Assembly (NCBI GenBank): GCA_021228405.1
Contig: JAJQRF010000005.1
Location: 62,001-126,000, forward strand
Source: Pyrinomonadaceae bacterium
GTDB taxonomy: Bacteria; Acidobacteriota; Blastocatellia; Pyrinomonadales; Pyrinomonadaceae
DNA: 64,000 bases
Direction: 5' to 3'
Below the pieces are notes generated by a model. The model did not search any database. It saw nothing but the letters and a program-made list of their open reading frames with translations, and had not been told where the DNA came from. Of this stretch, positions 35,630 to 52,288 are shown piece by piece. Position 1 is the first letter of the stretch, and the number at the start of each line of letters is the position of its first letter. The translations under genes were made by a program, and so were the position numbers.

Positions 35630-38452
35630 TCACTTATTCAGCAAAACGGGTTCGCCGAAACCGAGTTCCTTCAAACGCGGCAATTGCGTTTTCGCATCGC
35701 CGACGACGAGCCAGATCATTTTGTTTGCGTCCAGATATTTCGCCGACAAATCCTTGATCTGCTGAACGGTTATCGCTTTGACGATCGCTTCCCTGTCTTT
35801 GACGTAATCGGATTTCCAGCCGTATTTGCTGATGTTGTCGAGCATATTCAGTTTGGCAAACGAAGTTTCAAAGGCGCGGGCGTTGCTTTTGATGAGAAAA
35901 CCCTTCGTCGTTTCGAGGTCGGCTTCCGAATAATTTTTCCCGTAATTTTGCAAAATTTCCTTCACCAACTGCGCCGATTCGAGCGTCACGTTCGTGCGGA
36001 CACCGCTTCCGATGCTGAACGCGCCGGGCGATTTCGTTCCCGCAAACGACGAGCCGATTCCGTATGTGTAGCCCTTTCCTTCGCGCAATTGCTGGGTCAA
36101 CTGCGAAGCGAAACCGCCGCCGCCGAGAATATAATTCATCACGGTCGCGGGATAAAAATCCTTATCGGTCTGCGCGAGAGCCGGATAACCGAAACGCAGG
36201 ACGGACTGTTTCGCGTCGGGCACATCGTAGAAGTAAACGACGGATTTAGCGGGCGCGGACGGCGTTTTATATTCGGGAATGACGACGTTTTTCGCCTTCC
36301 ATTTGCTGTTCAGATTTTTTAACGAACCAGTAATTTTCGCTTTATTGAGCGCGCCGACAACGTGCATCCGTGCAACGAGAGGCGAAAGATTTTTCGTGTA
36401 AAAAGTTTTCAGATCGTCGAGCGTGATCGCGTTGACGGTTTCGACCGTGCCGAGAATGTTGCGCGAACGAATGTTGTCTTTTCCGTAAATGAGCTGGTTG
36501 TAATTGTTCTGCGCGATGGCATTCGGATTTGCGGATTGCTGATTGATCTGGCTGATGACGGCTTTTTTAACGAGATCGAACTCCTTCGCATCCCAGCGCG
36601 GTTCGAGCAGGATTTCTTCGACCAGAGCAAGCGTCGCGTCGTAATTTTTCGCCAGCGTCGTGACATTGATGCGAATATCCTCGGTCTGCGCCGAAACGTT
36701 GATCGTCGCGCCGAGCTGTTGAATCGCTTCTTCCAATTCCTGCGGCGTTTTTCTGGCGGTTCCCTGCGTCATCATCCGCGCCAGAAGATTTGCCACGCCG
36801 ACTTTGTCGATATTTTCGAGAAGCTGTCCGCCGTCGATCGCAATATCGAAATTGACGAGCGGAACTTCCGTGTTTTCAATGCCGTAAATGCGCATCCCGT
36901 TTTTGAGTTTTCGTTCCCAAACCGTCGGAACTTTCACTTCGGGCGCAGGTCCGTAAGGCGGTTCCTTACTGCGGTCGAACGACGAAGGCGTTTTTTCGTA
37001 TTCGGCGTTTTTCGTCGGATCGACTTCCGCTTCCGCGCCCTGCACGATCTTTTCTTCGACGACTTCGGCTTTTTTCGAGCCTTCGAGCGCGAGATTCATT
37101 TTGCCTTTCGGCACAAAGCTCGTTGCGACGTAGTTTTTGCCCTTGACGTATTTTTCGTAAACGCGCATCACGTCCGCCGTCGTGACGGCGAGAATGTTTT
37201 TGATGTCTTTTTCGATACAACCCGGATCGTTCGTCAGATAATTACACTGCGCGAGCTGAACGGTCTTGCCGAGAACATTCGACAGCGAATTGTAAAACTG
37301 TGTTTCCTGTCCCGCTTTGATGCGAGTTAAATCTTTTTCCGAAATTCCTTCTTTCTCGAATTTCGCGAAAGCTTCCTTGACCGCCGCCGCAACTTCGTCC
37401 AAATCCTTGTCGGGAAAAGCGCGCACAACGACCCCGAAACGTCCCGCAACTTCCTGTGTGTCACTATAAATTCCGACGCTCGAAGTCAGTTTTTTGTCTT
37501 CGACCAAAACCTTGTAAAAAGGCGCGGTTTTGCCTTCCGAAAGATAATTTGCCAACACGTCGAGCGCGTATGAATCAGGATTATACTGTTCGACACCAAC
37601 CCAAGCCATCGTTAGTTCGGGAAGCCGCGCAAAATTATCTTCGTGATAAAATTTGACCGTTTCCCTGATTTCGCCCGGACGTTTTCCGAGCGGTTTCACG
37701 TCTTCGCCGCGCTTTATCTCGCCGAAATATTTCTCAACCCATTTTTTCGCCTGTACTGTGTCGAAATCGCCCGCGACGATCAGCGTCACATTATTCGGCA
37801 CATACCAACGGCGGTAAAATTCCTTCACGTCCGCGAGCGTCGCATTATCCAAATCCTCGAGCGAACCGATCACCTGCCAATTATACGGATGATCCGCCGG
37901 AAACAATGCTTTATCGATCACATAACCCGTGTGACCGTAAGGATTGTTATCCACACCCTGACGTTTTTCGTTTTTGACGACCTGTTTTTCCTTCGCCAAA
38001 ACGGGTTCGGTGACGGTGTTGATAAACCAACCGAGTTTGTCGGCTTCCGCCCAGATCATTTTTTCGAGCGCGTCTTTCGGAACGGTTTGCAGATAATTCG
38101 TGCGGTCGCGCGAGGTCGAACCGTTCGCGCCCGAACCGCCGATGCGCGCCGTCATTTTATCCAAACCGCCTTTGCCTAAATTTTCCGATTCGAGAAACAA
38201 AAGATGCTCGAAAAGATGTGCAAAACCCGTGCGTCCTTCCTTTTCACGCGCCGAACCGACGTGCGCCGTTAAGTTGACCGCAACGACCGGATCGGAGCGG
38301 TCAACGTGAAAGATTACCTCCAAACCGTTCGGCAAGGTGAATTTTTCGTATTCGACCTTAAACGCCGGCGAATCCGCTTTTTTCTGCGCCGAAACGCCGA
38401 ACGATGACATCAAAAGACAGAAAATGACCAGATAGATTTTTGCGATTTTCAT
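35630..38452 (-). CDS. Secreted M16-family zinc metallopeptidase (two-domain)
   Basis: A 940-residue pitrilysin-family peptidase. The signal peptide ends at about residue 22 (GVSAQ). The inverted zinc motif His79-x2-Glu82-His83 (HLFEH in GFAHLFEHLLF) is intact; the third ligand Glu should lie in the region near EKQVVKNEKRQGVDNNPYG. The first M16 pair covers about residues 35-480, the second, without a zinc motif, residues about 500-930 (GVANLLARMMTQGTARKTPQ). Bacterial two-domain M16 enzymes often degrade peptides in the periplasm. It lies 102 nt after the GH47 gene. Confidence 0.9.
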   Translation of the reverse strand: MKIAKIYLVIFCLLMSSFGVSAQKKADSPAFKVEYEKFTLPNGLEVIFHVDRSDPVVAVNLTAHVGSAREKEGRTGFAHLFEHLLFLESENLGKGGLDKMTARIGGSGANGSTSRDRTNYLQTVPKDALEKMIWAEADKLGWFINTVTEPVLAKEKQVVKNEKRQGVDNNPYGHTGYVIDKALFPADHPYNWQVIGSLEDLDNATLADVKEFYRRWYVPNNVTLIVAGDFDTVQAKKWVEKYFGEIKRGEDVKPLGKRPGEIRETVKFYHEDNFARLPELTMAWVGVEQYNPDSYALDVLANYLSEGKTAPFYKVLVEDKKLTSSVGIYSDTQEVAGRFGVVVRAFPDKDLDEVAAAVKEAFAKFEKEGISEKDLTRIKAGQETQFYNSLSNVLGKTVQLAQCNYLTNDPGCIEKDIKNILAVTTADVMRVYEKYVKGKNYVATSFVPKGKMNLALEGSKKAEVVEEKIVQGAEAEVDPTKNAEYEKTPSSFDRSKEPPYGPAPEVKVPTVWERKLKNGMRIYGIENTEVPLVNFDIAIDGGQLLENIDKVGVANLLARMMTQGTARKTPQELEEAIQQLGATINVSAQTEDIRINVTTLAKNYDATLALVEEILLEPRWDAKEFDLVKKAVISQINQQSANPNAIAQNNYNQLIYGKDNIRSRNILGTVETVNAITLDDLKTFYTKNLSPLVARMHVVGALNKAKITGSLKNLNSKWKAKNVVIPEYKTPSAPAKSVVYFYDVPDAKQSVLRFGYPALAQTDKDFYPATVMNYILGGGGFASQLTQQLREGKGYTYGIGSSFAGTKSPGAFSIGSGVRTNVTLESAQLVKEILQNYGKNYSEADLETTKGFLIKSNARAFETSFAKLNMLDNISKYGWKSDYVKDREAIVKAITVQQIKDLSAKYLDANKMIWLVVGDAKTQLPRLKELGFGEPVLLNK

Positions 38453-38554
38453 AAATATTTCAGGTTACAAAACGAAGAGTTTTTATAATATTACTACGAA
38501 AACGTCGAAACATTTGGTTTCAAAACTTCACTTCGTCAGACTCTTTTTCATTTA

Positions 38555-39931
38555 TCACCACGTTTTTTTGAGCGGGTGCGCTTCGGTATTGAAAACTATT
38601 TTTTTGAAATTCAGAGTTTTCGACGGCGCGAAAAGCAGATAGTAATATTTAAAGGTTTCGGCAAACAAAAAGCTCTGCATATTATCGGCTTTTTCTTTGG
38701 TGACGACATTTTTCAAACCCGCGTAGCCGACTTCCGATCTGCAATGTTTCACGAAATCGTCGAAAAAGGTCTTGCCCATTGCGAGATATTTTTCGTCGCC
38801 CGTGTATCGGTAAAGATAATAGGTCGATTCGACGATTTCGGGACGCAGCGGATAACCGCCGTGCACGACTTCCTGTTTTTGGTAATCGAAAACTTCGGGT
38901 TCGATGCCGTGTTTCGTCCACATTTTAAAGCCCGAATCCTGCAATCTTTTCGCTCTGTCGAGATCGCCGCTCAAAGCCAAAACCGCCGGAAAGAAAGCAT
39001 CCAGCGCACCATATTCGGTCACGGTTCGTTTGCCCGTGTTCATATCGGCGTGACCATACCAAAGCCCGCCGCGCACTTCGTCGGCATAATATTTATTGAT
39101 CGCCTTGATCGATTCCTGCCACATTTTACGGCAATCCGCATCGTCAAAAAGAATCACGCATTTGAGCAGATATTCGTAGTAAGAATCGATCTCCGCGCTG
39201 ACGTGACTGTCCGTGTTCGTCCATTTTCCTGTTTCGACGTTGATATTCGTGCCGACCAACCCGATCGACGAACGCCGATTGTAGGTTTCGACCAGTGCGC
39301 GTTTTGCCTTATCGTAAAAAACGGGCTTTTTCGTCAGTTTCGCAAGCGTTCCGAACTCGATCAGAAGCGTTCCCGTTTCCGCCGGATTCGTCACTTCGCC
39401 TTTTGTTTTGCTCGTTTTCAGATTGATATATTTATACGGCAAACCCGTCGGCGAATCGAAAACCGGGAGCAGACGCGTTCCCAGATCGTCGGCAAGCGCA
39501 AGCAATTTTTTATCGCCCGTCATCTGATAAGCCGAAAGCAATCCGCCCAAAAGCCTGATCGTGATCTCGAAATTCTGCACGTAAACGTCTTTGTCAAACG
39601 AAAGATTTTCCGTGATATATTTCCGCGTCGCGTCCGCTTCCTGCTTAAAACCCAATAAATAAAGCGTATCGAGCGAATCAACCGGAGTCATCAAAAGCGT
39701 TTCGCCATACCAATCCTTGTAAGATTTCGACAAAGGTTTTAGATCGTCGTGCCCCCAGGCATATTTTTTATAACCGTTCCAGGCGTGCAGAAATTCGGCT
39801 TTGACTTGATTCGCAAGCTGTTTTTTATCAACTTTCTGTTTCGTTTGAGCAAATAAATTTGAAACGATTATTAAGAGTAAAAAAATCGAAACTACAAACT
39901 TAATTTTTGATAACTTCATAAAATTATTCAT
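38555..39931 (-). CDS. GH47-like alpha-mannosidase, secreted
   Basis: A 458-residue protein with a signal peptide (residues about 5-30, KFVVSIFLLLIIVSNLFAQ). The body matches class I alpha-1,2-mannosidases (GH47): HAWNGYKKYAWGHDDLKPLS, DSLDTLYLLGF, FEITIRLLGGLLSAYQMTG, EIDSYYEYLLKC, YPLRPEIVESTYYLYR and, near the C-terminus, VFNTEAHPL with the conserved Thr that binds calcium. It therefore should trim alpha-1,2-linked mannose with inversion. GH47 is mainly eukaryotic (ER mannosidase, EDEM), while bacterial members are few. The start overlaps the stop of the upstream lipid megaenzyme by 8 nt. A second ATG (39919) could be used instead. Confidence 0.82.
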   Translation of the reverse strand: MNNFMKLSKIKFVVSIFLLLIIVSNLFAQTKQKVDKKQLANQVKAEFLHAWNGYKKYAWGHDDLKPLSKSYKDWYGETLLMTPVDSLDTLYLLGFKQEADATRKYITENLSFDKDVYVQNFEITIRLLGGLLSAYQMTGDKKLLALADDLGTRLLPVFDSPTGLPYKYINLKTSKTKGEVTNPAETGTLLIEFGTLAKLTKKPVFYDKAKRALVETYNRRSSIGLVGTNINVETGKWTNTDSHVSAEIDSYYEYLLKCVILFDDADCRKMWQESIKAINKYYADEVRGGLWYGHADMNTGKRTVTEYGALDAFFPAVLALSGDLDRAKRLQDSGFKMWTKHGIEPEVFDYQKQEVVHGGYPLRPEIVESTYYLYRYTGDEKYLAMGKTFFDDFVKHCRSEVGYAGLKNVVTKEKADNMQSFLFAETFKYYYLLFAPSKTLNFKKIVFNTEAHPLKKTW

Positions 39932-42900
39932 CGATCACAGGCTCTTGCTTGCGGGTTTTGCGGCGTTCTGATTTCCATTTTTTACGAACCGCCGCCACGT
40001 CGAATTTGTCGCGTTTGCCGTCGCGCATATTTTCGATCTCGTGCTGAACTCGTGCCGCGATCAGACGATACGCTTCGGTGTTCGGAACGCCTTTGGTCAT
40101 CTCGAAGAGTTCTTCATATTCCAAAAATCTGCCGACTTTTGCGCCGACTTTTGCGCCGATAGACTTCTGCGCGGGAATCGTCATTCCTTTCGGAAACGCT
40201 TCATACGTTCCCCAGATGTAGATCGGGAGAATCCCGACCTTTTCGTTCAACGCGAGATAGCCGATGATCGGTTTGAATTCGTGAATTTCGCCGTCGAGCG
40301 TGCGTGTGCCTTCGGGGAAAATCAGGGTGTTGTAGCCTTCCCGCAAAATTTCGGTGACGTGGCGCAAACTCTGGCGCAGACTTCCCGTGCGTTCGATTGG
40401 AATGAGCGTCGTGAAATTGTTCATATAAGCGCGCTTGTATTTCGTGTCGAACCAGTAATCAGCCGCCGCGACCGCAACCGTTTGTTCGGCAACGTCTTTG
40501 CCCAACGCTTTTTTTACCAAGCCTGTATCGATGTGCGAAGCGTGATTCGGCGCGACGATGAAATTTACGTGTTGCGGCACGTTCGATTCGCCTTCGATCT
40601 TTGTCTGCAAAACCGTGTCGTAAAGTCTTTCCTGCGCGAAATCGATAATCTGATTTCCGACGCGGCGAATGATCGAAGGAATAAATATTTCGTCTTCCGT
40701 GCGTTCTTCTTTAACGGGCGCGTCAACGAGTTTCTTAGATTTATCGACGCGCTGAACCGCCGTCAAAAGCTCGCGGACGGTCTGCACTTCGTTCAGCGTG
40801 TCGGGCGAAACGACGCGCCCGCCCGCATCTTCGACCGCGCCTTGAAGTTCGACGAACATCAACGAATCGAAGCCGAGATCGGTTAATTTATCGGTCAAAG
40901 CGACTTCGGAAAGCGCACGGCTCGAAACGCTCGCAACGATCTTGCGAATCCAGAGCGCGGTGTCGTCGCCTTTCGTGTCGGCAACTTGCTTGGTTTTCTT
41001 TTTCGCACGTTCTTCGAGCGTTTTCAGCATCTCAACGACTTCGTTGCGCTTGACCTTGCGCGTTGCCGTGCGCGGAAGCTCGAACGGCGTGATGTGCAAA
41101 ACCTTGAGGCGTTTGAAAAACGGCAAACCCGCCGAAATTTCCCGAAAATGGTCTTCGATCTTTTTGTTCGTTTCGCTTCGTGACAGCGAAATATCGAATT
41201 CGTAATCAGGCACGACGAGCGCGGCAATTTTCTCGCCGCCGTCATCGTCGGGCAAACCGACGACCGACATTTCCTTGATATATTTCGACTTCCCGTATAA
41301 ATCCTCGATCTCGTCGGGATAGATATTCTTTCCGTTCGAGTCGATAATCACATCCTTTGACCGACCGACGATATATAAATTTCCGTCTTCGTCGAGTTTC
41401 CCGAGATCGCCCGTTTTGAGCCAGCGGTCTTGCAGAACGGATTCGGTCGCTTCGTCGTTGTTGTAATAGCCGAGCATCACGTTTTGACCACGCGCCAGAA
41501 CTTCGCCGACACCGTTTTCGTCCGCGTTCTCGATCTTCACTTCCACGCCCGGAAGCGGTTTTCCGACACTTCCGCGCAGCAATTTATTTCCCGGTCGCGC
41601 CACCGTCAAAACTGGCGAAGATTCGGTCAAACCGTAGCCTTCGAGCACGTTGAAACCGAGTCCGTGCAGGTCTTTCTGAACTTTTTCGGACAAAGCCGAA
41701 CCGCCCGAAATCAAATAACGCATCCGTCCGCCCATTCCCTGATGAATCGGGAAAAAGATGATCGGACCGAGGTTAAACGGCGTATTGTCGCGCACCCACG
41801 CGTTGAATTCGATAACGTTATCCGCCAAATCCGCAAACCAGTCGCCGCGTTCTCTTAACCTTGTTTTGATGCGCCGATGCAGCATTTCCCAGAGTGCGGG
41901 AACGCCGACCATTCCCGTCACGAGATTGTTTTCGATAGCGCGGGAAAGTTCTTCGCCGCTCAATTCGTCGAGATACGTGATCTGCGTTCCGTTTGAAAAC
42001 GGCGTTAGAAATCCGGCGGAAAACTCGAACGTGTGGTGCATCGGCAAAACCGACAAAACGCCGTCGTTGATGTCCATATCCAAAACGCTCGACAGCATCG
42101 AGATCATATTGACGAAATTTTTGTGCGAAAGCATCACGGCTTTCGGCGTGCCTGTCGTGCCCGATGTAAAAATGAGCGACGCAACCGAATTGGACAAAAT
42201 TTTATTCGGCAAAAGCGCATTTCGCCGCGCTTCTTCCTGTTCGCTCTGCATCTCGAAAACATCGTCGAAAGTGTAGATCGAAACGCCGTCCAACTGTGCC
42301 AGATCGGGATTTTCCGCAAGCAATTTCGGCGAAACGATAATTGCCGAGGCTTCGCCCGCTTCGACAAATTTTCCGATTTCTTCGACCGAACTCGCGGGAT
42401 CGATCGGAATCGCGGTCGCGCCTGTTTTCAAAATGCCGAAATAGCTCAACCCCCATTCGGGCATATTGTTTGAAAAAAGAATTACGCGGTCGCCCGATTT
42501 GATGCCGTTTTCCGCCAAAAATCCGGCGGCGCGGTAAGTCAGTTCCTTTACGTCGTCGTAGGTATATTGCTCTTTTTTGCCGTTGCGTTCGATCTTCAAA
42601 GCAATACGCGTCGAAAATCTTTTTACGGCAGTGTCGAACAGATCGAGCAAATCCTTGTAGGTATAAGCGCGTTTTTCGATCTTCTTTAAATCTTCTTCCA
42701 ACTGCGGCAAAACCCATTTCCGCATTCCCGGAAAATGAACTTTGAGCCAATAATCATACCAATCGAGTTTTTCGGGATACCACGGAAGCAAATTCTTCTC
42801 GTCGTCTTTGACGAGCGACATCAGCGCGCGCACGTTGTCGGAACGATATTCATACGCGTTGTCGATCATAAACGGCTTGAACATCGCGAAAGCATCGATC

Positions 42901-44327
42901 GTTTCCTGCGTCGTCTGCTCGAAGTCCTCGACCGATTTTTTCAAGTCCGTGACGATATTTGAAAGCCTGCCGCCCGCCCACGTCGGCGCGGCTTTTTCGA
43001 GCAGTTCATTCGCCGATTTTGCCAGTTTATTGAGCATCGGCGCGGAGAATCGGTCATAAGTTTTCTGCGTCACGGGCGTTGCCTCGATCATCGCCGCGAC
43101 GTTGTTGACCAGTTTATTGCCCGTTTCTTTTTTCTTGTAATGATCGCGTTTGTAAAGCCCGACGAGCCCGACGATGCGCTTCATATCGTTCGGGTTCGAG
43201 TCGCCCGACGACGATTGAAAAACGAGCGGCGGATTGTCGTCGATCAAAGCGTTCATCGCCGCGCCAAGAATACAGCCCGCGACCATATCGACGGGAATGA
43301 TGTCGAGCACCAGTTTTTCATTGACGGGAATGATCGGCTGACCGCGCAGAGCGATCAAAATCAGCGGCGCGGTCGTCGTAAAGCCTTCGTTCCAGCCCGG
43401 AAACGGATATTGCTGTGAAGATTCGACGATCGACGGACGCACGAGCGTTTTCACGATGTCGTCTTGTTTTGCGATGATCTGTTCCGCAAGAGATTTTGAA
43501 TACGTGTAAATATTCGTCCAGCCCCAATATTCCGCGCGCGCCGCGCCGAGTTCGGTCGTCCGTTCACGAATCCACATTTTGCGCTCACGAAACATCGCTG
43601 ACTTCAGTTCGGATTCATCATCGGGATCGCGTCCTTCTTCTTCAAAACGATTTCGGGCTTGCTCGCGGAATTTTGCGATCTGCACCGCGTCGTCCGCTTC
43701 CTGACGCGCCTGTTCCGAAAGCCGCGCACAATCTTCGACTTCCTTATCGACATCGAATTTCGTGCCGACAAGCTCGTTCTTACGCGGAAAATAGCCGACG
43801 ACGGGTTCGTTTTCCCAAACCGCGCCCGAACGTTTTCCTGCGACGAAACACGTTGAAACGTGAACGAGCGTCGGGCGTTTCATCAATCTTGCGAGCTTGA
43901 TGATGTTGTTCGAGCCGACGACATTCGTTCGCAAAGCCGATTCGAGCGGCGGATTAAACGTCACGTTTCCCGCACCGTTAATTATCACGTCCGTGTCCGC
44001 CATAATTTCCCGCGCTTCGGCTTCCGTCATTCCCAAATATTCATTCCCGACATCGCCGTTGACGGGCACGACCTTTTCACGAATAAAATCCTCAAACCCG
44101 TCGCCGTATTTCTCGCGCAATGGGTCGAACGTCGGCGAAGTGACGATGCTCGTCCAGAAACGAATCTCCGATTCCCGCGCATCCCGCGCCCTTACGGTCG
44201 CATAAACGCGTCCGACATTCGGAAAATTATGCAAAAGCATCGAAAGCGTCACCTTGCCCACAAAGCCCGTGCCGCCGATAAAGAAAATCTTCTTCCCTTC
44301 AAAAATTTCGGTTGGTGATAATTTCAT
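39924..44327 (-). CDS. ElbD-like megaenzyme: fatty acyl reductase, acyl ligase, ACP, PlsC
   Basis: A 1467-residue multidomain protein. Residues 10-390: NAD(P)-binding fatty-acyl/thioester reductase (GGTGFVG 18-24, Ser158 in HVSTCFVAG, Tyr274-x3-Lys278). Residues 560-1100: AMP-binding acyl ligase (TSGTTGTPK 721-729, YGLTESSP, KTGDLGK). Residues 1120-1195: acyl-carrier domain with the phosphopantetheine Ser1155 (LGFDSLMF). Residues 1220-1460: PlsC acyltransferase (His1262-x4-Asp1267 in NHASHID, FPEGTR 1337-1342). This domain set is the one described for ElbD of Myxococcus xanthus, which makes alkyl-ether lipids. I infer the same here: activation of a fatty acid, loading on the carrier, reduction to a fatty alcohol or aldehyde, and acyl transfer to a glycerol backbone. 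First gene of a coupled pair with GH47. Confidence 0.88.
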   Translation of the reverse strand: MKLSPTEIFEGKKIFFIGGTGFVGKVTLSMLLHNFPNVGRVYATVRARDARESEIRFWTSIVTSPTFDPLREKYGDGFEDFIREKVVPVNGDVGNEYLGMTEAEAREIMADTDVIINGAGNVTFNPPLESALRTNVVGSNNIIKLARLMKRPTLVHVSTCFVAGKRSGAVWENEPVVGYFPRKNELVGTKFDVDKEVEDCARLSEQARQEADDAVQIAKFREQARNRFEEEGRDPDDESELKSAMFRERKMWIRERTTELGAARAEYWGWTNIYTYSKSLAEQIIAKQDDIVKTLVRPSIVESSQQYPFPGWNEGFTTTAPLILIALRGQPIIPVNEKLVLDIIPVDMVAGCILGAAMNALIDDNPPLVFQSSSGDSNPNDMKRIVGLVGLYKRDHYKKKETGNKLVNNVAAMIEATPVTQKTYDRFSAPMLNKLAKSANELLEKAAPTWAGGRLSNIVTDLKKSVEDFEQTTQETIDAFAMFKPFMIDNAYEYRSDNVRALMSLVKDDEKNLLPWYPEKLDWYDYWLKVHFPGMRKWVLPQLEEDLKKIEKRAYTYKDLLDLFDTAVKRFSTRIALKIERNGKKEQYTYDDVKELTYRAAGFLAENGIKSGDRVILFSNNMPEWGLSYFGILKTGATAIPIDPASSVEEIGKFVEAGEASAIIVSPKLLAENPDLAQLDGVSIYTFDDVFEMQSEQEEARRNALLPNKILSNSVASLIFTSGTTGTPKAVMLSHKNFVNMISMLSSVLDMDINDGVLSVLPMHHTFEFSAGFLTPFSNGTQITYLDELSGEELSRAIENNLVTGMVGVPALWEMLHRRIKTRLRERGDWFADLADNVIEFNAWVRDNTPFNLGPIIFFPIHQGMGGRMRYLISGGSALSEKVQKDLHGLGFNVLEGYGLTESSPVLTVARPGNKLLRGSVGKPLPGVEVKIENADENGVGEVLARGQNVMLGYYNNDEATESVLQDRWLKTGDLGKLDEDGNLYIVGRSKDVIIDSNGKNIYPDEIEDLYGKSKYIKEMSVVGLPDDDGGEKIAALVVPDYEFDISLSRSETNKKIEDHFREISAGLPFFKRLKVLHITPFELPRTATRKVKRNEVVEMLKTLEERAKKKTKQVADTKGDDTALWIRKIVASVSSRALSEVALTDKLTDLGFDSLMFVELQGAVEDAGGRVVSPDTLNEVQTVRELLTAVQRVDKSKKLVDAPVKEERTEDEIFIPSIIRRVGNQIIDFAQERLYDTVLQTKIEGESNVPQHVNFIVAPNHASHIDTGLVKKALGKDVAEQTVAVAAADYWFDTKYKRAYMNNFTTLIPIERTGSLRQSLRHVTEILREGYNTLIFPEGTRTLDGEIHEFKPIIGYLALNEKVGILPIYIWGTYEAFPKGMTIPAQKSIGAKVGAKVGRFLEYEELFEMTKGVPNTEAYRLIAARVQHEIENMRDGKRDKFDVAAVRKKWKSERRKTRKQEPVIDE

Positions 44328-44348
44328 TTTGTAAAAATCTCAAGTTGA

Positions 44349-44942
44349 TTAAGCATCTATTCCAATAATCAAAACAGGAATATCAATATCAGCCGTGCCG
44401 CGACTTTCTAAATCCCAAACAAATTGTTCAAAATACGAAACGCCCGTTGACATTTCCAGTGCCAGAGATTTTACGGGAACGATTTCGATACCGCATTTAA
44501 TGATTTCAAGATTGCTGAAAATCGTCATCTTCGCGCAAACGTTGTAAACCATAAACGAGTATTTGCCGAATTGAACCTCGCATCCCAAGCCGTCTTTGAC
44601 AAAATCCATATCCCGAAACGCGCCTTTCAAACTTGAGCGAATTTCGTAATCTTCTAGGTAATATGTCGTCGGATATTCGCAGTCAACTTTGACGTTCTTC
44701 CAACCTTTCGGAAAAAGTTCGTTTTTGAACGCTTCATTTAACTTTACCGGACTATATAATGTTCGTCCCAACATAGTCTTTTCTGCACTGATCTTAGTTT
44801 TTGCTTCGGATGCATCAATATTTGAGATACTTTCTTTTATCTCAGCAAGCAAGTGCGGATAGCGTTTCGTGATCTCTTTCAATCCGTTTTTAAACGAGTA
44901 TTGCGCTGCGATTCTCAACTTTTCACCTCCAGATTTTGCCAT
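44349..44942 (-). CDS. BglII/BstYI-family type II restriction endonuclease
   Basis: A 197-residue protein. The segment RDMDFVKDGLGCEVQFGKYS supplies the D...E-x-Q catalytic arrangement of the BglII/BstYI family (as in BglII, where Gln replaces the usual Lys). Other conserved parts are FMVYNVCAKMTIF and DIDIPVLIIGIDA. It overlaps the methyltransferase gene by 28 bp and is translated after it, so the modification enzyme is made first. The recognition site predicted for this family is RGATCY or AGATCT, and RGATCY seems absent in this window (see findings). GC is lower than in the flanking megaenzyme. Confidence 0.85.
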   Translation of the reverse strand: MAKSGGEKLRIAAQYSFKNGLKEITKRYPHLLAEIKESISNIDASEAKTKISAEKTMLGRTLYSPVKLNEAFKNELFPKGWKNVKVDCEYPTTYYLEDYEIRSSLKGAFRDMDFVKDGLGCEVQFGKYSFMVYNVCAKMTIFSNLEIIKCGIEIVPVKSLALEMSTGVSYFEQFVWDLESRGTADIDIPVLIIGIDA

Positions 44943-45985
44943 TCAAGCGGTAACTGCGCGACTTTTTCGCGCCCCGTCGGTTGGTGAATCGGTTTGCCGA
45001 GCGGACGATAGCCGAGTTTGCCCGAATATAAATCTTCAATTCTCTGTTTGGCAATTTCGACGTATGCGGTTTCTTTTTCACATCCAAAAGCACGCCGTTC
45101 ATTTTTTAAAGCCGCTAAAAGTGCCGAACCAACACCCGAAAACGGGTCTAAAATCCAATCATTTTTATTCGTTAGAGCTAATACGCACCTTTCTACCAAT
45201 TCAATCGGAAACTGACACGGATGCAAAGTTTTTTCGGGATGATTCGCTTTGACGTTCGGTATTTCCCAAAGACAGGTTTCCCAATCCTGCACGACTATTT
45301 TCCAAACATCTGACGGGTTTTTGCCTAAAGGATTTCCCGAAGGTTGTCCTTTTTTTTCGCCTTTAAAGTGCGTTTTGCCCGGATATTTTGAAGGAACGCG
45401 CACATTATCAAGATTAAATGTATATTCGTCGCTTTTCGTAAACCAAAGCAAAGTTTCATAACGCCCTGAAAATCGCTTTGAAGCGTGAAGCCCGTGTTCA
45501 AAATGCCAAATTATTCGATTGCGTAACTTCAAACCGTATTCTTTAAAAAGTTGGTAAAAATAAATATCGAGCGGGAAAACTTCGCCATCTTTGACATAAT
45601 TTCCAACCTGCCAACACACCGAGCCGTCATTTGCCAAAACACGAACAATCTGCTCAATTGAAGGTCGCAAAGTTAATAAATAATTCTCAAGCGTTGCTGT
45701 CTTCTCGTATTTTTTATCAAGATTATAAGGCGGCGAAGTAATAATAAGTTTGACAGTTTTATCAGGAATATCGGAAAGAATTTTTACGCAATCGCCATTA
45801 GAAATTACAACTTCAGCATTCGGATTAAATATTTCTTCAATCTTAGGATTTGAAAACAATATTTTCTGAGTTTTTTTTTGCATTTCATCTTCCAATTGAA
45901 CCGCAATTTCTTCAAAACTCAGCCTCGAACTTTCACGACCTTCATTCGAATAAAACTCATATTTCCCCAATTTTGGTTCAGTCAT
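44915..45985 (-). CDS. Beta-class DNA methyltransferase of the restriction pair
   Basis: A 356-residue site-specific DNA methyltransferase. The catalytic motif IV TSPPYNL (near residue 84) precedes the AdoMet motif I (LDPFSGVGSALLAAL, near residue 275), which is the beta-class order. S-P-P-Y is typical of N4-cytosine enzymes, though N6-adenine cannot be excluded. The target recognition region is the middle (about 100-230, YTFNLDNVRVPSKYPGKTHF). It starts 9 nt after the LarA-family gene and overlaps the endonuclease gene by 28 bp. Confidence 0.9.
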   Translation of the reverse strand: MTEPKLGKYEFYSNEGRESSRLSFEEIAVQLEDEMQKKTQKILFSNPKIEEIFNPNAEVVISNGDCVKILSDIPDKTVKLIITSPPYNLDKKYEKTATLENYLLTLRPSIEQIVRVLANDGSVCWQVGNYVKDGEVFPLDIYFYQLFKEYGLKLRNRIIWHFEHGLHASKRFSGRYETLLWFTKSDEYTFNLDNVRVPSKYPGKTHFKGEKKGQPSGNPLGKNPSDVWKIVVQDWETCLWEIPNVKANHPEKTLHPCQFPIELVERCVLALTNKNDWILDPFSGVGSALLAALKNERRAFGCEKETAYVEIAKQRIEDLYSGKLGYRPLGKPIHQPTGREKVAQLPLEWQNLEVKS

Positions 45986-45994
45986 AAAATCCTC

Positions 45995-47596
45995 CTAATC
46001 CGACACATTACAAAGCCCGATCATCGGCTGATGAAGCATCGTGATTTCCGCGCTTCTGCCCATGTATGAGCGCGCCATTGAAACGGCTTCGGTCAGATTG
46101 TCGGCGCGTTCCCAGCCGAGCATTTCGGGGACGTGGGCGTTTTCCGCGCCGGCGACGATGACTTTGCCGACGTGCTGGCGACCGTTTTCGCCCCAATACC
46201 ACATAAAAAATGCGTGTGCGCCGTGATAGGCGTTACCGCGGCGATACATCTCGATATAGGCAGGATTTTCGGCAAATTCGCGTTCGTATTTTTCGCGCAG
46301 ATAAAATGCGTCGCGCGATTCGGGCAAAAGGCGATGGAAAAATTCGATATACGACGGATGAAATTTCGGGTCGAATTCGTCGAAACACGGATGCGTAATA
46401 ATCATCACGCCGCCTTTTCGCAGAAGCGGTTTGTTGCGATACATATTGAAATGATAGCCGAGAGCCATCACCTGCACGAGAATCGGGTTCAGTGCGGAAT
46501 AGACGTTATACGGCGAAATGTCGGGAATGCCCGAGATCAGAATGTCGCATTGACCTTTAACGGGAATTTCGTATTGCCGATAGTTGAGTTCGAGAATTTT
46601 CTCGTGGACTTTTTCGGTTTCGCCTGCAAAACAGCCGATCAATTCGTATTGCGCCGGAATCGCGTGGAGCATTTTTCTTCGGGCGATGCGCGGCAGGTTT
46701 GAAAACGTGCGCTTCATCACTTCCCATTTCATTCGGTCGGCAAACGAAAACTCGTCTTCGTTGCGCGTCAGAATGTCGTAGCCTTCGGGAAACATACGGT
46801 TGTTGATCGCCGTTTCGATGTGAAAGACGTTGCAATGTTCGTCAACCAATTTTCCCAACTTGATAACTTTATGATTGAGCGCGGATTTCGGCGGGTCCAT
46901 ATACGAATCCGAATCGCGAATCGTCTGCGGATCGTGATGCTGGCGCAGAGATTCGTAATCGCACAGCCCGACCGCGACCGATTTATGCCCGCCGTCCATC
47001 GGCACGAGATTGATATTTAAATAAATCAGAATATCGCTTTCGATCGCACGTTTGTTGACGCGCAACGGTTCGTCGTGGCGCGTATAGCCGATCGTGACGA
47101 GATTTTCGTCGTCTTCCGCGTCGTGATTGTAATAACGGTCGGGATAAAATTCGTTAAAAATATCCGAACCGACCATTCTTTCCATTTCCCAAGCCGTCAT
47201 TTTGCGGTGCAGACTGTTGGCGATAATCAAATGCACGTCGTCAACGCCGTTTGCCGCGCACATATCGAGCACGACTTCGAGCATCGTCTGGCGCAGATCG
47301 GGCGTTTGCATCGGCGGCAAAGGAAGCGAAATATCGTCCATCGCGATCGTCACGCGCATTCCCGGCTCCAATTGAGCGTAAAGCGGTTTCGCGTCGATCG
47401 GATGATTTATCGCGTAACGAATCGCCGCTTCGCGGTTCGGCAAGCCTTTGATCGGCGGATTTGGATAGATCACGCGCGTCCCGACCGGCAGATCGTTAAT
47501 AATAAAATCCTCGCCGTTCGGCATAATGCGCGGCGCGCTGTCTTTATCGATGTAAACTATTGATTCGTGTGTTTTTCTGCGTAATTGCAATGGCAT
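45995..47596 (-). CDS. LarA-family (lactate racemase-like, DUF2088) protein
   Basis: A 533-residue protein of the LarA/DUF2088 family. LarA uses a nickel-pincer nucleotide cofactor to racemise or epimerise 2-hydroxy acids. Seen: [15 protein letters not shown] at the N-terminus, [30 protein letters not shown] with the candidate catalytic His, and [20 protein letters not shown] in the C-terminal half. It is about 100 residues longer than typical LarA (about 420), so it belongs to a long subfamily with perhaps a different substrate. No larB, larC or larE cofactor genes are in the window. It lies 2 nt after a lipoprotein gene. Confidence 0.82.
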
Positions 47597-47598
47597 AG

Positions 47599-48069
47599 TT
47601 ATTTTGTATTAATGACAAGCCGACAAGGTTTATCACAAATTTTTTCTATTTCATAAGCGGAAAGTTTCGGCTCGCCGCTTTTCAGATTCCATTCAAACTT
47701 TTCTCTGAACATCGCTTTATCGGAAGAAACCGGTTCGACGTTCGAGAATTTTGTTTTCTTAAAAACAGTTCTTTTAATTGCGTCCTTTAAATCGTCCTGT
47801 AACCAACCGTGAGATGTTTCTTTTAGCTTATCAATGTCGTTATCCTTGACGACTTCCAAATAGGAAACAAACTGTTGTTCGGTAAATTTATTTTTTAACT
47901 CATCGTCCGCTTCCGAATAAATTTGATTGAACTTTTCCTGATTGAACAAAGCGTGAAAATTATTAATGCTATTCGTTAATTTATTTTCGATTTCCCGGTT
48001 TTCCTCAAAGGCACAACCTGGGAAACTAACGGAAAGAAACAAAATTAAAATCAAATTTAGATTTCTCAT
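47599..48069 (-). CDS. Small lipoprotein, unknown
   Basis: A 156-residue lipoprotein. A signal peptide with a lipobox ([12 protein letters not shown], Cys18) is followed by a helical, charged domain ([40 protein letters not shown]). The pattern of an N-terminal helix pair followed by an antiparallel sheet could be a cystatin/NTF2-like fold, but this is a guess. Two further Cys near the end (KICDKPCRL) may pair. It is the first gene of the minus-strand run that continues through larA to GH47. Confidence 0.75.
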
Positions 48070-48143
48070 TTTTATTTACCGTAAGCACTCAAAAGCAGTT
48101 TACCTTCGTAATCATCAAACCTAATTTCACTCTTCCAATTTAT

Positions 48144-48563
48144 TTACTCTTCCCAAGGATTCAAAATCGTCACTTGCGAATTTTGAAAATTTTTGACGTT
48201 TCGCGTCACCAAAATTAAATCGTGTTCGAGCGCAGTTGCTTCCAAAAGTGAATCGAGCGCGGAACGGACGATTCCTTTATTTTCTAATTCGCCGCACATT
48301 CTGCCCCAAACCAGAAATGTCGTTTCCGAAAGCGGCAAAAGCCTTCGCGCAAAACGGTTTCGCAGTTTTTCCAGCCATTCTTCAAGTTCGGTTTTCTTTT
48401 TTCCCGAGTCAAGACGTGCAATTCCTCTGCGAATTTCTCCGACGCTCAGCACGCTCAAATAGATTTTCGATTCATCCTGTGCGTCGAGCCATTCGAGAAC
48501 TTTTTTATTCGGCGTTTTCTGTTTCGGTTCGGAAATTACGTTCGTGTCGAGTAAAAACTTCAT
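48144..48563 (-). CDS. vapC: PIN-domain toxin (VapC/FitB-like)
   Basis: A 139-residue PIN-domain ribonuclease, toxin of a type II toxin-antitoxin pair. The N-terminus MKFLLDTNVISEP has the first catalytic Asp (Asp6) and Asn-Val-Ile-Ser-Glu, typical of FitB/VapC. Other acidic residues lie in LSVGEIRRGI (Glu) and DSLLEATALEHDLILVTRN (Asp, Glu). The start overlaps the stop of the antitoxin gene (ATGA). Confidence 0.88.
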   Translation of the reverse strand: MKFLLDTNVISEPKQKTPNKKVLEWLDAQDESKIYLSVLSVGEIRRGIARLDSGKKKTELEEWLEKLRNRFARRLLPLSETTFLVWGRMCGELENKGIVRSALDSLLEATALEHDLILVTRNVKNFQNSQVTILNPWEE

Positions 48564-48811
48564 TCAAACGACACCTCATCGCGCACGGGATCATCGTTTC
48601 TTTCGAGATACGGAAGTATCTCATCGAGCGGAGAATTTTGGAGAAATTCGACCAGACTTTCTTTTTTACCACTCACTTTTTTCCATTCCTCGATCGAAAC
48701 GACAACGGCGACTTCGCGGTCATTTCGGCGAATTATCTGCGGTTCGCCTTTTTCCGCCAGACGAATCAAACTGCTCAAATTATTCTTTGCATCTTTAACC
48801 GTATGCGACAT
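48560..48811 (-). CDS. Phd/YefM-family antitoxin
   Basis: An 83-residue antitoxin. The N-terminal domain (SHTVKDAKNNLSSLIRLAEK, PQIIRRNDREVAVVVSIEEW) is the Phd/YefM DNA-binding fold with the usual VVVS-I-E-E-W. The C-terminal part (DEILPYLERNDDPVRDEVSF) is acidic and should wrap around the toxin. Such antitoxins usually repress their own promoter. An imperfect palindrome upstream (near 48812-48860) could be the operator, but I could not define it. Confidence 0.88.
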   Translation of the reverse strand: MSHTVKDAKNNLSSLIRLAEKGEPQIIRRNDREVAVVVSIEEWKKVSGKKESLVEFLQNSPLDEILPYLERNDDPVRDEVSFE

Positions 48812-48895
48812 TTTTCACCTCTGAAATACAAACTTGGCTACTTAGCCATTATAAATATTTTCGCTTCAAAATCGAATGACGCAAAGCGGCAAATT

Positions 48896-49819
48896 TTACT
48901 TCAAATCCTTATCGAAACCTTTCGCCGCTTTGAGAATCGTTTCGACGGCGCGGACGTAGAATTCCTGATTTATCTTGGCAAAATCGTCGGTCGGTCGGTG
49001 GTAATCTTCGTGATCTTCGACACCGAAATAGATGAACGGGATTTTTGCGGCGTGAAACGAACCGTGATCGGATTGATTCGTCCAATCGTCGCGTTTTTCT
49101 TCGGGCTGGTCGTGTCCGAACAATAATTTTATTTCCGACTTTCCGGCGATCTTTTCAAGCAAAGGTTTGAATTGCGGATTATGATACGTGCCCGAAGCGT
49201 AAAGCTCGTTTTTGTCGTTGTGCGCGATCATATCCATATTGATGTTCATCACGATCTTTTCCTTCGCAACCGGCGGCGATTCGACAAACTTTTTGCTTCC
49301 GCGCAGTCCCGATTCCTCGCCGTCGAAGGCGGCGAAAATTATCGTGTGCAACGGTTTATGTTTCGTAAAATATGCGGCAAGCGCGAAAAGTGCCGAAGTT
49401 CCCGACGCGTTATCGTCCGCGCCGTTATAAATCTCGCCGTTGTGCATCCCGACGTGATCGTAATGCGCCGAGATAACAATGTATTTTTCCTTAAACTTTT
49501 TCCCTTCGATAAATCCTAAAACATTCGTGCCGTTAAATTTTTTGCTTGAACGAATTGAAAATTCAAACGGATGCAAATAAGTATCGCCGAAGGATTTAAT
49601 GCCCGCTTCCTTAAATCTCGCAACGACATATTCACGCGCCTTTGCGCTTCCTTCCGTCCCGATCCCGCGTCCCTGCATATCGTCCGCCGAAAGCGTTTCG
49701 ATGTCCTTCAAAAGTTTCGCGGCGTTGATAATTTTCGATTTCGGAGGAACGGCAGATTTCTGCCCCAAAACAGGTAAAAAAACCAAAACCAAAATAAGCG
49801 AAAATAAAACTGATCTCAT
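48896..49819 (-). CDS. Secreted M28-family metallopeptidase
   Basis: A 307-residue exopeptidase of the M28 family. The signal peptide is residues 1-20 (SVLFSLILVLVFLPVLG). Zinc-binding motifs: His in ISAHYDHVG, bridging Asp in GADDNASGTS, catalytic Glu pair in FDGEESGLRGSK, Asp in NMDMIAHND and His in DYHRPTDD. These enzymes remove N-terminal amino acids from peptides in the periplasm. It lies 4 nt after the HAD-phosphatase gene, so the two form an operon. Confidence 0.9.
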   Translation of the reverse strand: MRSVLFSLILVLVFLPVLGQKSAVPPKSKIINAAKLLKDIETLSADDMQGRGIGTEGSAKAREYVVARFKEAGIKSFGDTYLHPFEFSIRSSKKFNGTNVLGFIEGKKFKEKYIVISAHYDHVGMHNGEIYNGADDNASGTSALFALAAYFTKHKPLHTIIFAAFDGEESGLRGSKKFVESPPVAKEKIVMNINMDMIAHNDKNELYASGTYHNPQFKPLLEKIAGKSEIKLLFGHDQPEEKRDDWTNQSDHGSFHAAKIPFIYFGVEDHEDYHRPTDDFAKINQEFYVRAVETILKAAKGFDKDLK

Positions 49820-49823
49820 AAAA

Positions 49824-50498
49824 TTACTTTAAATCCAAAATTGCCCAATCGTGCTGTGTCGCAGTTTGGCGCAGACGAAAATCGGGATTGACCGCGACCG
49901 GATGACCGACGATGGAAAGCATCGGCAGGTCGGAAATGCTGTCGGAATAAGCATAAGATTCGCTTAGATTGATATTGTTCTTTTCGGCATATTCGCGCAT
50001 CCATTTCGCCTTCGTTGCCGAAGCCATCACAGGAGGAAGAATTCTGCCCGTCGCATAGCCGTTGACGAACTCCAAGCGGTTTGAAACGAATTCGTCGATG
50101 CCGAGATATTCGCACAAACGGTCGACCGTAAAATCGAGCGCGCCCGTGATGACGATCTGTTTCTGCCCGATCTTTTTCGATTGTGCGATCAGTTCGCGCG
50201 TGCCGTCGAAGATCGCGGGTTTCAAAACTTCTTCAAACAACTCTTCCGAAAAATAGCGCAGACGGTCTTGCGATTCGCCCGCGTATGATTGAAAAAAGAA
50301 TTCGTTGAAAACGTTGCGCGAATAGAGATCGGTCACGCCGAACAGCGGAAGTTTGGCAAACGTTCCGACGCTTTTTTTGATGGTGGTAAAAAAACCCTGC
50401 TGGCGGCGCGAATAGAAAGCGAGCGTGTGCACGAGATTCGTGCCGACGAGTGTGCCTTCGAGATCGTAAAAAGCCGCCGCTTGTCCGTTATTTTTCAT
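49824..50498 (-). CDS. HAD-IB family phosphatase
   Basis: A 224-residue haloacid-dehalogenase-like hydrolase of subfamily IB, related to phosphoserine phosphatase. Motif I is Asp12-Leu-Glu14-Gly-Thr (YDLEGTL), with Glu instead of the second Asp that acts as acid/base. Motif II is the Thr in VITGALDF, motif IV is YSDSISDLPML. The Glu for Asp exchange keeps an acidic residue but is not usual. The substrate is unknown; a sugar- or lipid-phosphate is possible. Cotranscribed with the M28 peptidase. Confidence 0.82.
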   Translation of the reverse strand: MKNNGQAAAFYDLEGTLVGTNLVHTLAFYSRRQQGFFTTIKKSVGTFAKLPLFGVTDLYSRNVFNEFFFQSYAGESQDRLRYFSEELFEEVLKPAIFDGTRELIAQSKKIGQKQIVITGALDFTVDRLCEYLGIDEFVSNRLEFVNGYATGRILPPVMASATKAKWMREYAEKNNINLSESYAYSDSISDLPMLSIVGHPVAVNPDFRLRQTATQHDWAILDLK

Positions 50499-50589
50499 TA
50501 CGCTTTATTTTGCAAAACTTAGATAGACTTTTATTTATATAAAGACATAGAATATAACAAAATTTCGACAATTTGGGTAATTTAACAGG

Positions 50590-51369
50590 ATGAAAAAAGT
50601 CAGCTTTTGCACATTAATTACAGTTGTGTTCATTGTTCTAACCTTCGGCGGATGCGCTTCAAAAGTCGAAAGCGAACCCGAAGTAAGGGAAACCGCGCCC
50701 GTCGCCGACCTGCTGAAAGAAGCGGAAGAAAATTTCAAACAGCGCGAAGATATTGCCAAACTGCGCCACGCCGTCAATGTTTTGAAACGGGCGCGTTCGG
50801 CGGACGAGAAAAATTACGAAGCCGCGTGGAAGCTCGCGCAATACAGCTATTTTCTCGGAAAGGCGACGAATGACGACAAGGAAAGCGAACAGATTTTCGC
50901 GGTCGGGACAAACGCCGGACGCGTTGCCAGCCGCCTCGAACCAAACCGTCCCGAAGGTCATTTCTGGCTCGGCGCGGCTTACGGCGGCGAAGCCGAACGT
51001 TTTCCTTTTACGAAAGGCTTACCGAACGTCGAAAAGATCAAGGAATCGATGAACCGCGTTATCGAGATCGACCCGAAATTTCAAGGCGCGACCGCCTTCG
51101 ACGCACTCGCAACCATCGAAATTAAAACCGCTTCATTCGGCGGAAAACCCGAAAAAGCCGTCGAACTTTTGCAGAAAGGATTGGAACTCAACCCCGACAA
51201 CTTTCTTTCGCGGCTCAACTTAGCCGAGGCGTATCTCGCGCTCAAACAAAAGGACGAAGCGAAAAAACAACTCGAAATGATCTTCAAGATCAAACCCGCG
51301 CCCGAGCTTCAACCCGAATACAGGGAGATCGAAGGAAAGGCACGAAAGATGCTGGAAACGAAATTTTAG
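50590..51369 (+). CDS. TPR lipoprotein, TatT-like
   Basis: A 259-residue lipoprotein. The signal peptide carries a lipobox (VLTFGGC, Cys22). The rest is helical TPR-like repeats (YEAAWKLAQYSYFLGKATND, FLSRLNLAEAYLALKQKDEA). The segment HFWLGAAYGGEAERFPFTKG and ESMNRVIEIDPKFQGA resembles the TatT component of TRAP-transporter-associated lipoproteins (Tp0956-like). It probably acts as a periplasmic scaffold. The stop codon TAG at 51367 is the first triplet of the heptanucleotide array H2. Confidence 0.82.
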   Translation: MKKVSFCTLITVVFIVLTFGGCASKVESEPEVRETAPVADLLKEAEENFKQREDIAKLRHAVNVLKRARSADEKNYEAAWKLAQYSYFLGKATNDDKESEQIFAVGTNAGRVASRLEPNRPEGHFWLGAAYGGEAERFPFTKGLPNVEKIKESMNRVIEIDPKFQGATAFDALATIEIKTASFGGKPEKAVELLQKGLELNPDNFLSRLNLAEAYLALKQKDEAKKQLEMIFKIKPAPELQPEYREIEGKARKMLETKF

Positions 51370-51467
51370 TCCCGAGTCTTGAGTCTGAAGTCTTGAGTCA
51401 ATCTTTGATTTGCAGTTTTCTTTTTTTGATTTTAGACTTTGGACTCAAGACTTCAGACTTTGGACTA
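51367..51467. repeat. Heptanucleotide array H2, two inverted arms
   Basis: Left arm: AGTC-type units with TAGTC at 51367, GAGTC at 51374 and 51381, AAGTC at 51388, GAGTC at 51395 (7-bp steps). Right arm in inverted orientation: GACTT at 51435, GACTC at 51442, GACTT at 51449 and 51456, GACTA at 51463 (7-bp steps). The first unit contains the stop codon of the TPR lipoprotein gene. It could fold into one long hairpin with a 34-nt middle. Confidence 0.85.
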
Positions 51468-51474
51468 AAACTTT

Positions 51475-51972
51475 ATGCGTCGTGCCATTTTTCCCGGTTC
51501 ATTCGATCCTTTGACTTGCGGACATCTCGACATCATCGAGCGCAGTTTGCCGCTTTTTGACGAGATCGTGATCGCCGTTTTAAATAATCCCGAAAAAAAT
51601 CCGATGTTTTCCGTCGAAGAACGCTGCGAAATGATCGGCGCGGTTCTGCGCGAGATCGAAACTGAAAAATGTCTGCTCACGGTCGACAGTTTTTCGGGCT
51701 TGACCGCCGATTTTGCGCGGAAAAAGGAAGCCATTGCTATCGTGCGCGGCATCCGTGCCGTTGCCGATTATGAATACGAACTCCGAATGGCTCTGATGAA
51801 CCGCCGGCTCGAACCTTCAATCGAAACCGTTTTCCTGCTTGCCGCCGAAGAATATTCGTATGTTTCCTCGACCTTGATGAAACAGGTTTTCACGCTCGGC
51901 GGGCGCGTCGAGGGCTTGATTCCGAAAGCGATCGAAGCGAAAATGCGCGAAAAAGCGGATTCGGGCAATTGA
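51475..51972 (+). CDS. coaD: Pantetheine-phosphate adenylyltransferase
   Basis: A 165-residue enzyme that adenylylates 4'-phosphopantetheine, the penultimate step of coenzyme A synthesis. The nucleotidyltransferase motif is GSFDPLTCGHLDII (7-20), followed by AIVRGIRAVADYEYELRMAL and the EYSYVSSTLMKQV segment. The length is normal. The ATG is only 8 nt after heptanucleotide array H2. A MITE-like repeat follows. Confidence 0.95.
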   Translation: MRRAIFPGSFDPLTCGHLDIIERSLPLFDEIVIAVLNNPEKNPMFSVEERCEMIGAVLREIETEKCLLTVDSFSGLTADFARKKEAIAIVRGIRAVADYEYELRMALMNRRLEPSIETVFLLAAEEYSYVSSTLMKQVFTLGGRVEGLIPKAIEAKMREKADSGN

Positions 51973-51975
51973 ATT

Positions 51976-52191
51976 TAAGCACCCCAACAAAATTAAGTTA
52001 GATTAACTAAAAACTCCCCTCCTTTTTTAAGGAGGGGTGGCGCGAAGCGGCGGGGTGGTTGGTGCAAGTTTGGCAATTCGACAGTTTAGGCTTGAGATAA
52101 AACCACCCCGTCCGCGAAGCGCGTCCACCCCTCCTTAAAAAAGGAGGGGAACTTTCTTTTGATTTAGCTTACATTCCGTATTAATGCTTAA
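51976..52191. repeat. MITE-like element copy B (long form)
   Basis: Left end TAAGCACCCC..AAATTAAGTTAGATTAA, then CTCCCCTCC core and an extra inverted pair (GGGGTGGCGCGAAGCGGCGG with the complement CCGTCCGCGAAGCGCGTCCA), ending with AGGGGAACTTTC..GCTTAA. It can fold into one long hairpin of about 215 nt. Confidence 0.75.
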
Positions 52192-52288
52192 GTCCTGCAA
52201 CAAAATTAAGTTAGATTGAATAAAAACTTCCCTCCTTAAAAAAAGGAGGGGAGTTTTTTAGTTTCATTTAATATTGCGTGAGTGCTTA
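52188..52288. repeat. MITE-like element copy C
   Basis: Left TTAAGTCCTGC..AAATTAAGTTAGATTGAAT, core ACTTCCCTCC / GGAGGGGAGT, right end TAATATTGCGTGAGTGCTTA, inverted relative to the left. It overlaps copy B by about 4 nt, so they share an end. Confidence 0.75.

Follow-up and report, generated by a model that had tools for sequence, protein, structure and literature searches.

Does the nuclease encoded at one locus explain why its predicted recognition site is missing from the DNA around it? The question is raised by positions 44349-45985 of the 64,000-nt stretch analysed here (the window; bases 62001-126000 of contig 2 of genome G000, an assembly of 5.72 Mb in 20 contigs), where a nuclease gene (R) and a methyltransferase gene (M) lie in DNA that holds no RGATCY. 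We consider it highly probable that the two genes form a BstYI-type restriction-modification pair of Type IIP, and that their lineage has long and repeatedly been exposed to RGATCY restriction. The identity of the genes and the history of the site are treated separately below.

The nuclease and methyltransferase genes

The R gene (44349..44918, minus strand) encodes a BglII/BstYI-family (PF09195) Type II restriction endonuclease of 189 aa. It matches PF09195 with E 2.2e-19 and 70.2 bits, above the curated cut-off of 26, and a profile search of G000 gave this one match in total and no second PF09195 gene. The match to BstYI (PDB 1sdo) has E 6.8e-37 and is aligned over BstYI residues 1-201, compared with 6.7e-9 for BglII; a preliminary description of this DNA had placed the local enzyme in the BglII/BstYI family, and the placement holds, with BstYI as the nearer relative. 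In the alignment R keeps D119, E128 and Q130 of BstYI, which we take to be the catalytic residues, as well as K133, which together with S172 is presumably tied to specificity for RGATCY rather than AGATCT. T replaces S172 in R, a difference that counts against our preferred reading, and BglII has N at both the K133 and the S172 places. A literature search on BstYI and K133 found nothing. From its family, R is predicted to cut unmodified RGATCY.

The M gene (44915..45985, minus strand) encodes a DNA methyltransferase of the N6_N4_Mtase class with 356 aa (PF01555, E 1.5e-50; it also matches PADLOC Type II methyltransferase models), with the motifs SPPY at residue 84 and FSGVG at residue 282. It is encoded first, on the same strand as R, and overlaps it. 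Two starts are available for R, a TTG at 44918-44916 (189 aa) sharing bases with the M stop codon (TTGA) and an ATG at 44942 (197 aa); a GGAGG at 44926..44930 on the minus strand, inside the end of M, is the probable ribosome-binding site of R. Because the BstYI alignment begins at the M-overlapping TTG that follows the GGAGG, R is probably 189 aa long, and its translation appears to be coupled to the M stop. M is predicted to modify RGATCY, the same site as R.

The pair is closely flanked on the same strand. An ORF of 533 aa (45995..47596) ends 9 bases before M and by eye resembles what we take to be a LarA-type racemase, and an ORF of 1467 aa (39924..44327) starts 21 bases after R and by eye presumably comprises reductase, AMP-ligase and acyltransferase parts. 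Farther upstream, two overlapping minus-strand ORFs of 139 and 83 aa (48144-48811) look by eye like what we assume to be a PIN-domain toxin and a Phd/VapB antitoxin. The GC content of R and M (0.39-0.40 vs 0.51 in the neighbours) was considered as a sign of recent arrival and set aside, as R is AT-rich relative to the host sample in 16/16 carriers of the gene (G127 and G138 left out).

Loss of RGATCY in the window and in the genome

RGATCY is absent from the whole window (1..64000), as the preliminary description had claimed. Among the 423 GATC sites (plus strand, all flanked sites counted) there are 171 YGATCR, 131 RGATCR, 121 YGATCY and no RGATCY, with zero counts for each of AGATCT, AGATCC, GGATCT and GGATCC; YGATCY is indeed common, at 121 rather than the "roughly a hundred" given earlier. 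Three null models agree that dozens of RGATCY, from ~35 (ORFs only) to 93, were to be expected: ~93 from the other three GATC classes (131 x 121 / 171), 52 from an order-2 Markov model, and 35.5 from within-gene shuffling of synonymous codons in 32 mechanical ORFs of at least 200 aa (43,515 nt), where the minimum of 200 shuffles was 23. The remaining GATC classes stand at 1.5 to 1.75 times the synonymous-shuffle expectation.

The same loss extends throughout G000. In a sample of 20 stretches (L009-L028; 397,504 bases) RGATCY occurs 17 times, compared with 317 expected from the order-2 Markov model or 518 from quasi-independence of the flanks, and the sampled ORFs hold 11 compared with 266.5 expected under synonymous codon shuffling. 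The whole assembly, on both strands, has 10,633 AGATCG and 86 AGATCC. The genome-wide count proposed in the preliminary description gave depletion beyond the window too, and RGATCY was nowhere near the normal frequency elsewhere in the genome that would have spoken against it. The genomic rate is low, at ~3 to 6 percent of what is expected, but does not reach zero; the exact zero in the window is partly luck, because the sampled rate predicts 2.7 sites per 64 kb.

All forms of the degenerate site are depleted, not AGATCT alone, in line with the earlier suggestion that the loss points to RGATCY. By form the sample contains 1 AGATCT, 8 AGATCC plus GGATCT and 8 GGATCC (flank-model expectation 299, 189 and 30; order-2 Markov expectation 73 for AGATCT and 85 for GGATCC). 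GATC overall is not depleted (2387 vs 2046 expected), and under synonymous shuffling CGATCG (1.3) and GAATTC (1.0) are normal. The host avoids all RGATCY forms, the depletion of RGATCY goes beyond composition and codon use, and the loss is real and genome-wide in G000.

Other lost sites and enzymes of matching families

RGATCY is the fourth or fifth most depleted among 16 RxxxxY classes in the G000 sample. Relative to order-2 Markov expectation the window has 0/208 GGCC, 0/85 GRCGYC, 0/64 RGCGCY and 1/103 TTCGAA; observed and expected counts in the sample are 1/1011, 1/478, 4/395 and 6/563 for the same four sites, 0/153 for GATATC, 62/993 for CATG, 49/495 for GTAC and 18/136 for TGATCA. Depleted sites number about a dozen in all, RGATCY among them, so its loss alone is no pointer to the R gene.

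Comparable depletion is seen for GGCC, GRCGYC, RGCGCY, GATATC, TTCGAA, GTCTC and GCCN5GGC; four of them have a matching enzyme family encoded elsewhere in G000. A partial inventory, covering the neighbours of C5-class, N6_N4-class and two D12-class methyltransferases, revealed nucleases of the HindVP family (PF09519, 1.2e-144), the Alw26I/Eco31I/Esp3I family (7.7e-122; 407.6 bits, below the NCBIfam cut-off of 443.85), the BglI family (PF14562, 4e-71, with a weaker SfiI match at 7.6e-29) and the EcoRV family (PF09233, 5.6e-108; PDB, 9.3e-35). We take the corresponding sites to be GRCGYC for HindVP, GTCTC for Alw26I, GCCNNNNNGGC for BglI and GATATC for EcoRV; a literature search on the sites of these families found nothing useful. 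With R, five Type II nucleases of G000 have a site implied by their family, and each site is nearly gone. Three further nuclease-like genes imply no site: an Mrr-like (L199), a Type III-like (L198) and a BPTD_3080-like (L193) gene.

GTCTC (29 vs ~392 expected in the sample) ranked sixth by z-score among depleted non-palindromic words, cores already known to be avoided being excluded, before the enzyme was found; by ratio it is seventh of 512 pentamers, and lowest once GGCC, CATG, GTAC and CTAG pentamers are set aside. The BglI site was predicted from the gene first and counted afterwards: GCCN5GGC occurs 3 times, spacers of 4 and 6 give 86 and 90, and the eleven other spacers between 1 and 12 give 37 to 118, so that one spacer length out of twelve is depleted. 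Relatives sampled for comparison (those with at least 5 expected sites, from a set that includes all 17 other R carriers and was partly picked for low AGATCC) are as depleted as G000 or more in 0/48 cases for GTCTC, 1/38 for GCCN5GGC, 3/50 for GRCGYC, 6/28 for GATATC and 13/49 for RGATCY. The depletion of GTCTC and GCCN5GGC is reached in almost no relatives, which makes these sites clear pointers to a resident enzyme, whereas RGATCY and GATATC are far weaker ones; the 13/49 for RGATCY count against our preferred reading. The HindVP nuclease is present in 2/145 genomes, G000 and G059; GRCGYC is absent from the G059 sample (0/25 expected), and also from those of G023 (0/11) and G026 (0/5), which have no HindVP.

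Several strong depletions in L009-L028 have no matched enzyme, namely those of RGCGCY, TTCGAA, CATG, GTAC, ATGCAT, TGATCA and GCWGC. GGCC is likewise without a nuclease of its type among the G000 genes examined around methyltransferases; it is also missing from the samples of 9/50 relatives (G007, G013, G019, G023, G026, G037, G038, G049 and G059), which include both RGATCY avoiders and non-avoiders. One C5 methyltransferase of G000 (L190, contig C7:637000-647000) lies beside a protein with a sub-cut-off DrmC-like match, perhaps part of DISARM. Stretch L026 (C18:250001-270000; GC 0.41) has the highest counts of CATG (11), GTAC (12) and TGATCA (5) among the 20 stretches, as in recently acquired DNA, and yet no more than one RGATCY.

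Distribution of the nuclease and of avoidance among relatives

Avoidance was compared among 145 genomes by the AGATCC/AGATCG ratio, values below 0.1 being called strong; the index is less reliable where GATC is lost generally, as in G005, G006 and G007. A BstYI-like R is found in 18 of these genomes, G000 included, and M at E 1e-60 in 20; M adjoins the PF09195 nuclease in 16 of the 18 and was not found at this threshold in carriers G108 and G127. The ratio is below 0.1 in 13/18 genomes with R, 21/123 with neither R nor M and 1/4 with M only, and genomes with R differ from the 127 without it (Mann-Whitney p 1.2e-4, kinship ignored). Sampled stretches of 50 relatives (the 17 other carriers plus 33 partly picked for low AGATCC) give the same picture. 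The PF09195 profile adds G060, G077, G115, G119 and G139, bringing the total to 23 genomes; their ratios are 0.33 to 0.61. Four of the five have much higher PF09195 scores and may encode enzymes specific for AGATCT, which would not recognise AGATCC.

The association is loose on both sides. Strong avoidance is seen in 22/127 genomes that lack a BstYI-like nuclease, none of the 22 having a PF09195 match, and five of the 18 carriers are at or above 0.1: G112 (0.178) and G138 (0.284) avoid more weakly, and G070 (0.336), G087 (0.398) and G133 (0.968) show no clear avoidance, which counts against our preferred reading. G070 and G087 belong to genus g9, all 14 members of which lie between 0.26 and 0.41. 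The expectation that relatives without the system would not avoid RGATCY was not borne out. Avoidance is common without the R gene and is therefore weak evidence for this particular gene. Incomplete assemblies alone do not explain the missing R, as 17 of the 23 genomes of family f1 with a ratio below 0.1 lack it at a stated completeness of 71 to 95 percent.

These figures bear on the proposal, going back to the preliminary description, that this very R/M copy, long resident and active, alone emptied the genome of RGATCY. Depletion is strong where the gene is present, in the window and in the G000 sample, and in genus g39 carriers G102 and G106 (0.041, 0.037) lie below five non-carriers (0.116-0.211). 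Elsewhere congeners without R can avoid the site as strongly: 0.015 vs 0.034 with R in g26, and 0.042 and 0.051 vs 0.014 and 0.063 in g11. In g38 the carrier avoids least (0.178 vs 0.032 with M only, 0.060 and 0.093), and the two g12 genomes (0.006, 0.003) have no R and no N6_N4 methyltransferase that could be found. The inference of a long-active system from complete loss is therefore not supported as stated, given the 22/127 avoiders without R and the 5/18 carriers above the threshold, although the g39 ratios leave some room for long residence.

The position of R was followed with the first 300 residues of the 39924..44327 ORF as query. A homologue of this downstream neighbour occurs in 7/10 other carriers examined, at 62-64 percent in G010, G014, G018 and G025 and at 36-38 percent in G101, G108 and G109; it is beside R in none, being on another contig in six and 73 kb off in G101, and is absent at E 1e-40 in G100, G102 and G106. 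Given that 3/7 homologues are at 36-38 percent and the assemblies are fragmented, this is no more than suggestive against that proposal. The presence of R is patchy with no conserved position seen, and avoidance tends to follow lineages. That the resident copy alone cleared the genome is thus unlikely; we favour the reading in which the lineage met RGATCY-specific enzymes repeatedly.

A few R and M genes deserve separate mention. The M of G097 matches at 76 percent, has no R beside it and stands in a genome that still avoids the site (0.032), and no remnant of R was found beside M in G097, G093, G094 or G091 in a search with 17 R proteins. R of G102 and G106 had seemed broken by an in-frame TGA, and this was rejected since the stop falls just before the homologous stretch begins. 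In the active site R of G108 (L040) carries Q130E and that of G127 (L041, near a contig end) E128L and Q130E, both with no M detected; the two genes are possibly dead or re-purposed.

Related loci and known systems

A scan of named genomes returned at least 584 loci with R relatives, of which the best 80 (56-75 percent alike, mostly from other phyla; 1.15 Mb) were counted; the closest named relatives among the matches listed are Acidobacteriota, some labelled gp4, and G000 itself probably belongs to this phylum. In these 80 loci RGATCY occurs 435 times vs a mean of 1417 for RGATCR and YGATCY, a ratio of 0.31; for 14 control tetramers, likewise palindromic, the corresponding class gives 0.47 to 1.67. 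Among 63 of the loci with enough sites, 8 are below 0.1, 30 below 0.25 and 1 at or above 0.7. The controls are not all clean, TCGA being below 0.1 in 19/70 loci, and the comparison covers local DNA around R relatives only, with no R-less control and with a few loci that may duplicate genomes already counted.

BstYI (PDB 1sdo, 1vrr, 2p0j) is the closest known counterpart, sharing homology over residues 1-201, D119/E128/Q130, K133 and the predicted site RGATCY, and differing at S172. BglII (PDB 1d2i) belongs to the same family, but its match is weaker and it differs at the K133 and S172 places; it cut an AGATCT probe only (PMC10734518), whereas in G000 AGATCC and GGATCC are lost too. R.Nph3I of phage NrS-3 is, according to the same source, a PF09195 nuclease that was first called BglII and then shown to cut RGATCY. 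Like the window pair, it is accompanied by a methyltransferase (M.Nph3I, acting on the same site as its nuclease); unlike it, the system is phage-borne, with N6-adenine methylation described.

Site avoidance of this kind is known. Rusinov et al. 2015 (PMC4687349) examined 1774 cases of resident orthodox Type II systems and report avoidance in 47.9 percent of them; it is rarer where the system lies in compositionally alien DNA, with H. pylori as an exception. Relatives without the gene also avoid the site, read there as traces of lost systems. The patterns in G000 and its relatives fit this model. What differs is the near-total depletion, and that it concerns five family-named enzymes in one genome; we make no claim that a match at five sites is unprecedented. 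The effect is of a known type, unusually strong in G000 and repeated for four other cutting enzymes.

Interpretation

The proposed history is as follows. R would cut unmodified RGATCY and M would modify the same site, so that sites left without protection for a short time following replication, or once M has been lost, could be cut. Such self-restriction would be a selective force under which lineages lose RGATCY through substitutions, many of which are silent. This loss would have accumulated over the history of the lineage while RGATCY-specific systems were gained and lost; the present R/M copy would be one of these systems and is not shown to be the sole cause. The same process may have cleared G000 of the sites belonging to at least four more of its enzymes.

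A different source of the loss within G000 would be another RGATCY or GATC-type system, with the window pair as a bystander. The genome does encode about a dozen N6_N4-class, at least four D12-class and about four C5-class methyltransferase genes, several with unnamed neighbours, and TGATCA is low along with RGATCY. G000 has, against this, a single PF09195 match, the family of the pair fits the RGATCY motif, and the lack of any overall GATC depletion speaks against an enzyme that acts on every GATC; we regard such a bystander role as very unlikely. An effect of composition, mutation bias or codon usage is scarcely credible: palindromes are low as a class in G000 (16/64 hexamer palindromes at or under 0.05), and section 13 of PMC4687349 reports palindromes as generally low, partly for reasons other than restriction, but synonymous shuffling predicts 35.5 and 266.5 sites where 0 and 11 are found, CGATCG and GAATTC are normal, and composition would not single out non-palindromic GTCTC or one spacer length of GCCNnGGC.

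If recurrent restriction is the cause, then in some lineages the genome records restriction specificities almost to the last site. Such a record would be good enough for a site to be predicted once the family of a gene is known, as with BglI, and for enzymes that are still unnamed to be noticed. A missing site would then date the exposure of the lineage, not the age of the adjoining gene.

Candidate enzymes in avoiders without R

The neighbours of N6_N4 methyltransferases in 10 genomes and of D12 methyltransferases in 13 genomes and their kin, examined for an alternative RGATCY enzyme, showed no system common to all of these avoiders without R. G011 and G035 had no match to the N6_N4 class, and in G011 the ORFs adjoining the D12 gene match SpoIIM and DUF58. 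In G020 and G034 a D12 gene has as its neighbour a Type II nuclease recognised by PADLOC, 57 percent alike. In G048 and G012 the D12-class methyltransferase has a conserved partner of 387-395 aa, with a relative of 233 aa in G004 (L321:269-1429, L322:2291-3475, L323:701-1402); searches with the G012 copy gave no match in Pfam, PADLOC or NCBIfam, and the G048 copy matches nothing in NCBIfam and, in PDB, nothing better than E 0.7. This partner is a candidate new nuclease family. There is a small chance that some avoiders lacking PF09195 carry RGATCY nucleases of undescribed families, and that the lists of lost sites in G000 and its kin reveal the specificities of unmatched enzymes, for example the G012/G048 partner or whatever removed GGCC, RGCGCY and TTCGAA from G000.

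CGATCG, finally, has zero counts in the samples of several relatives (L082-L085 from G011 and G035, and others) vs 265 in that of G000, so that sister lineages avoid a further site with a GATC core.
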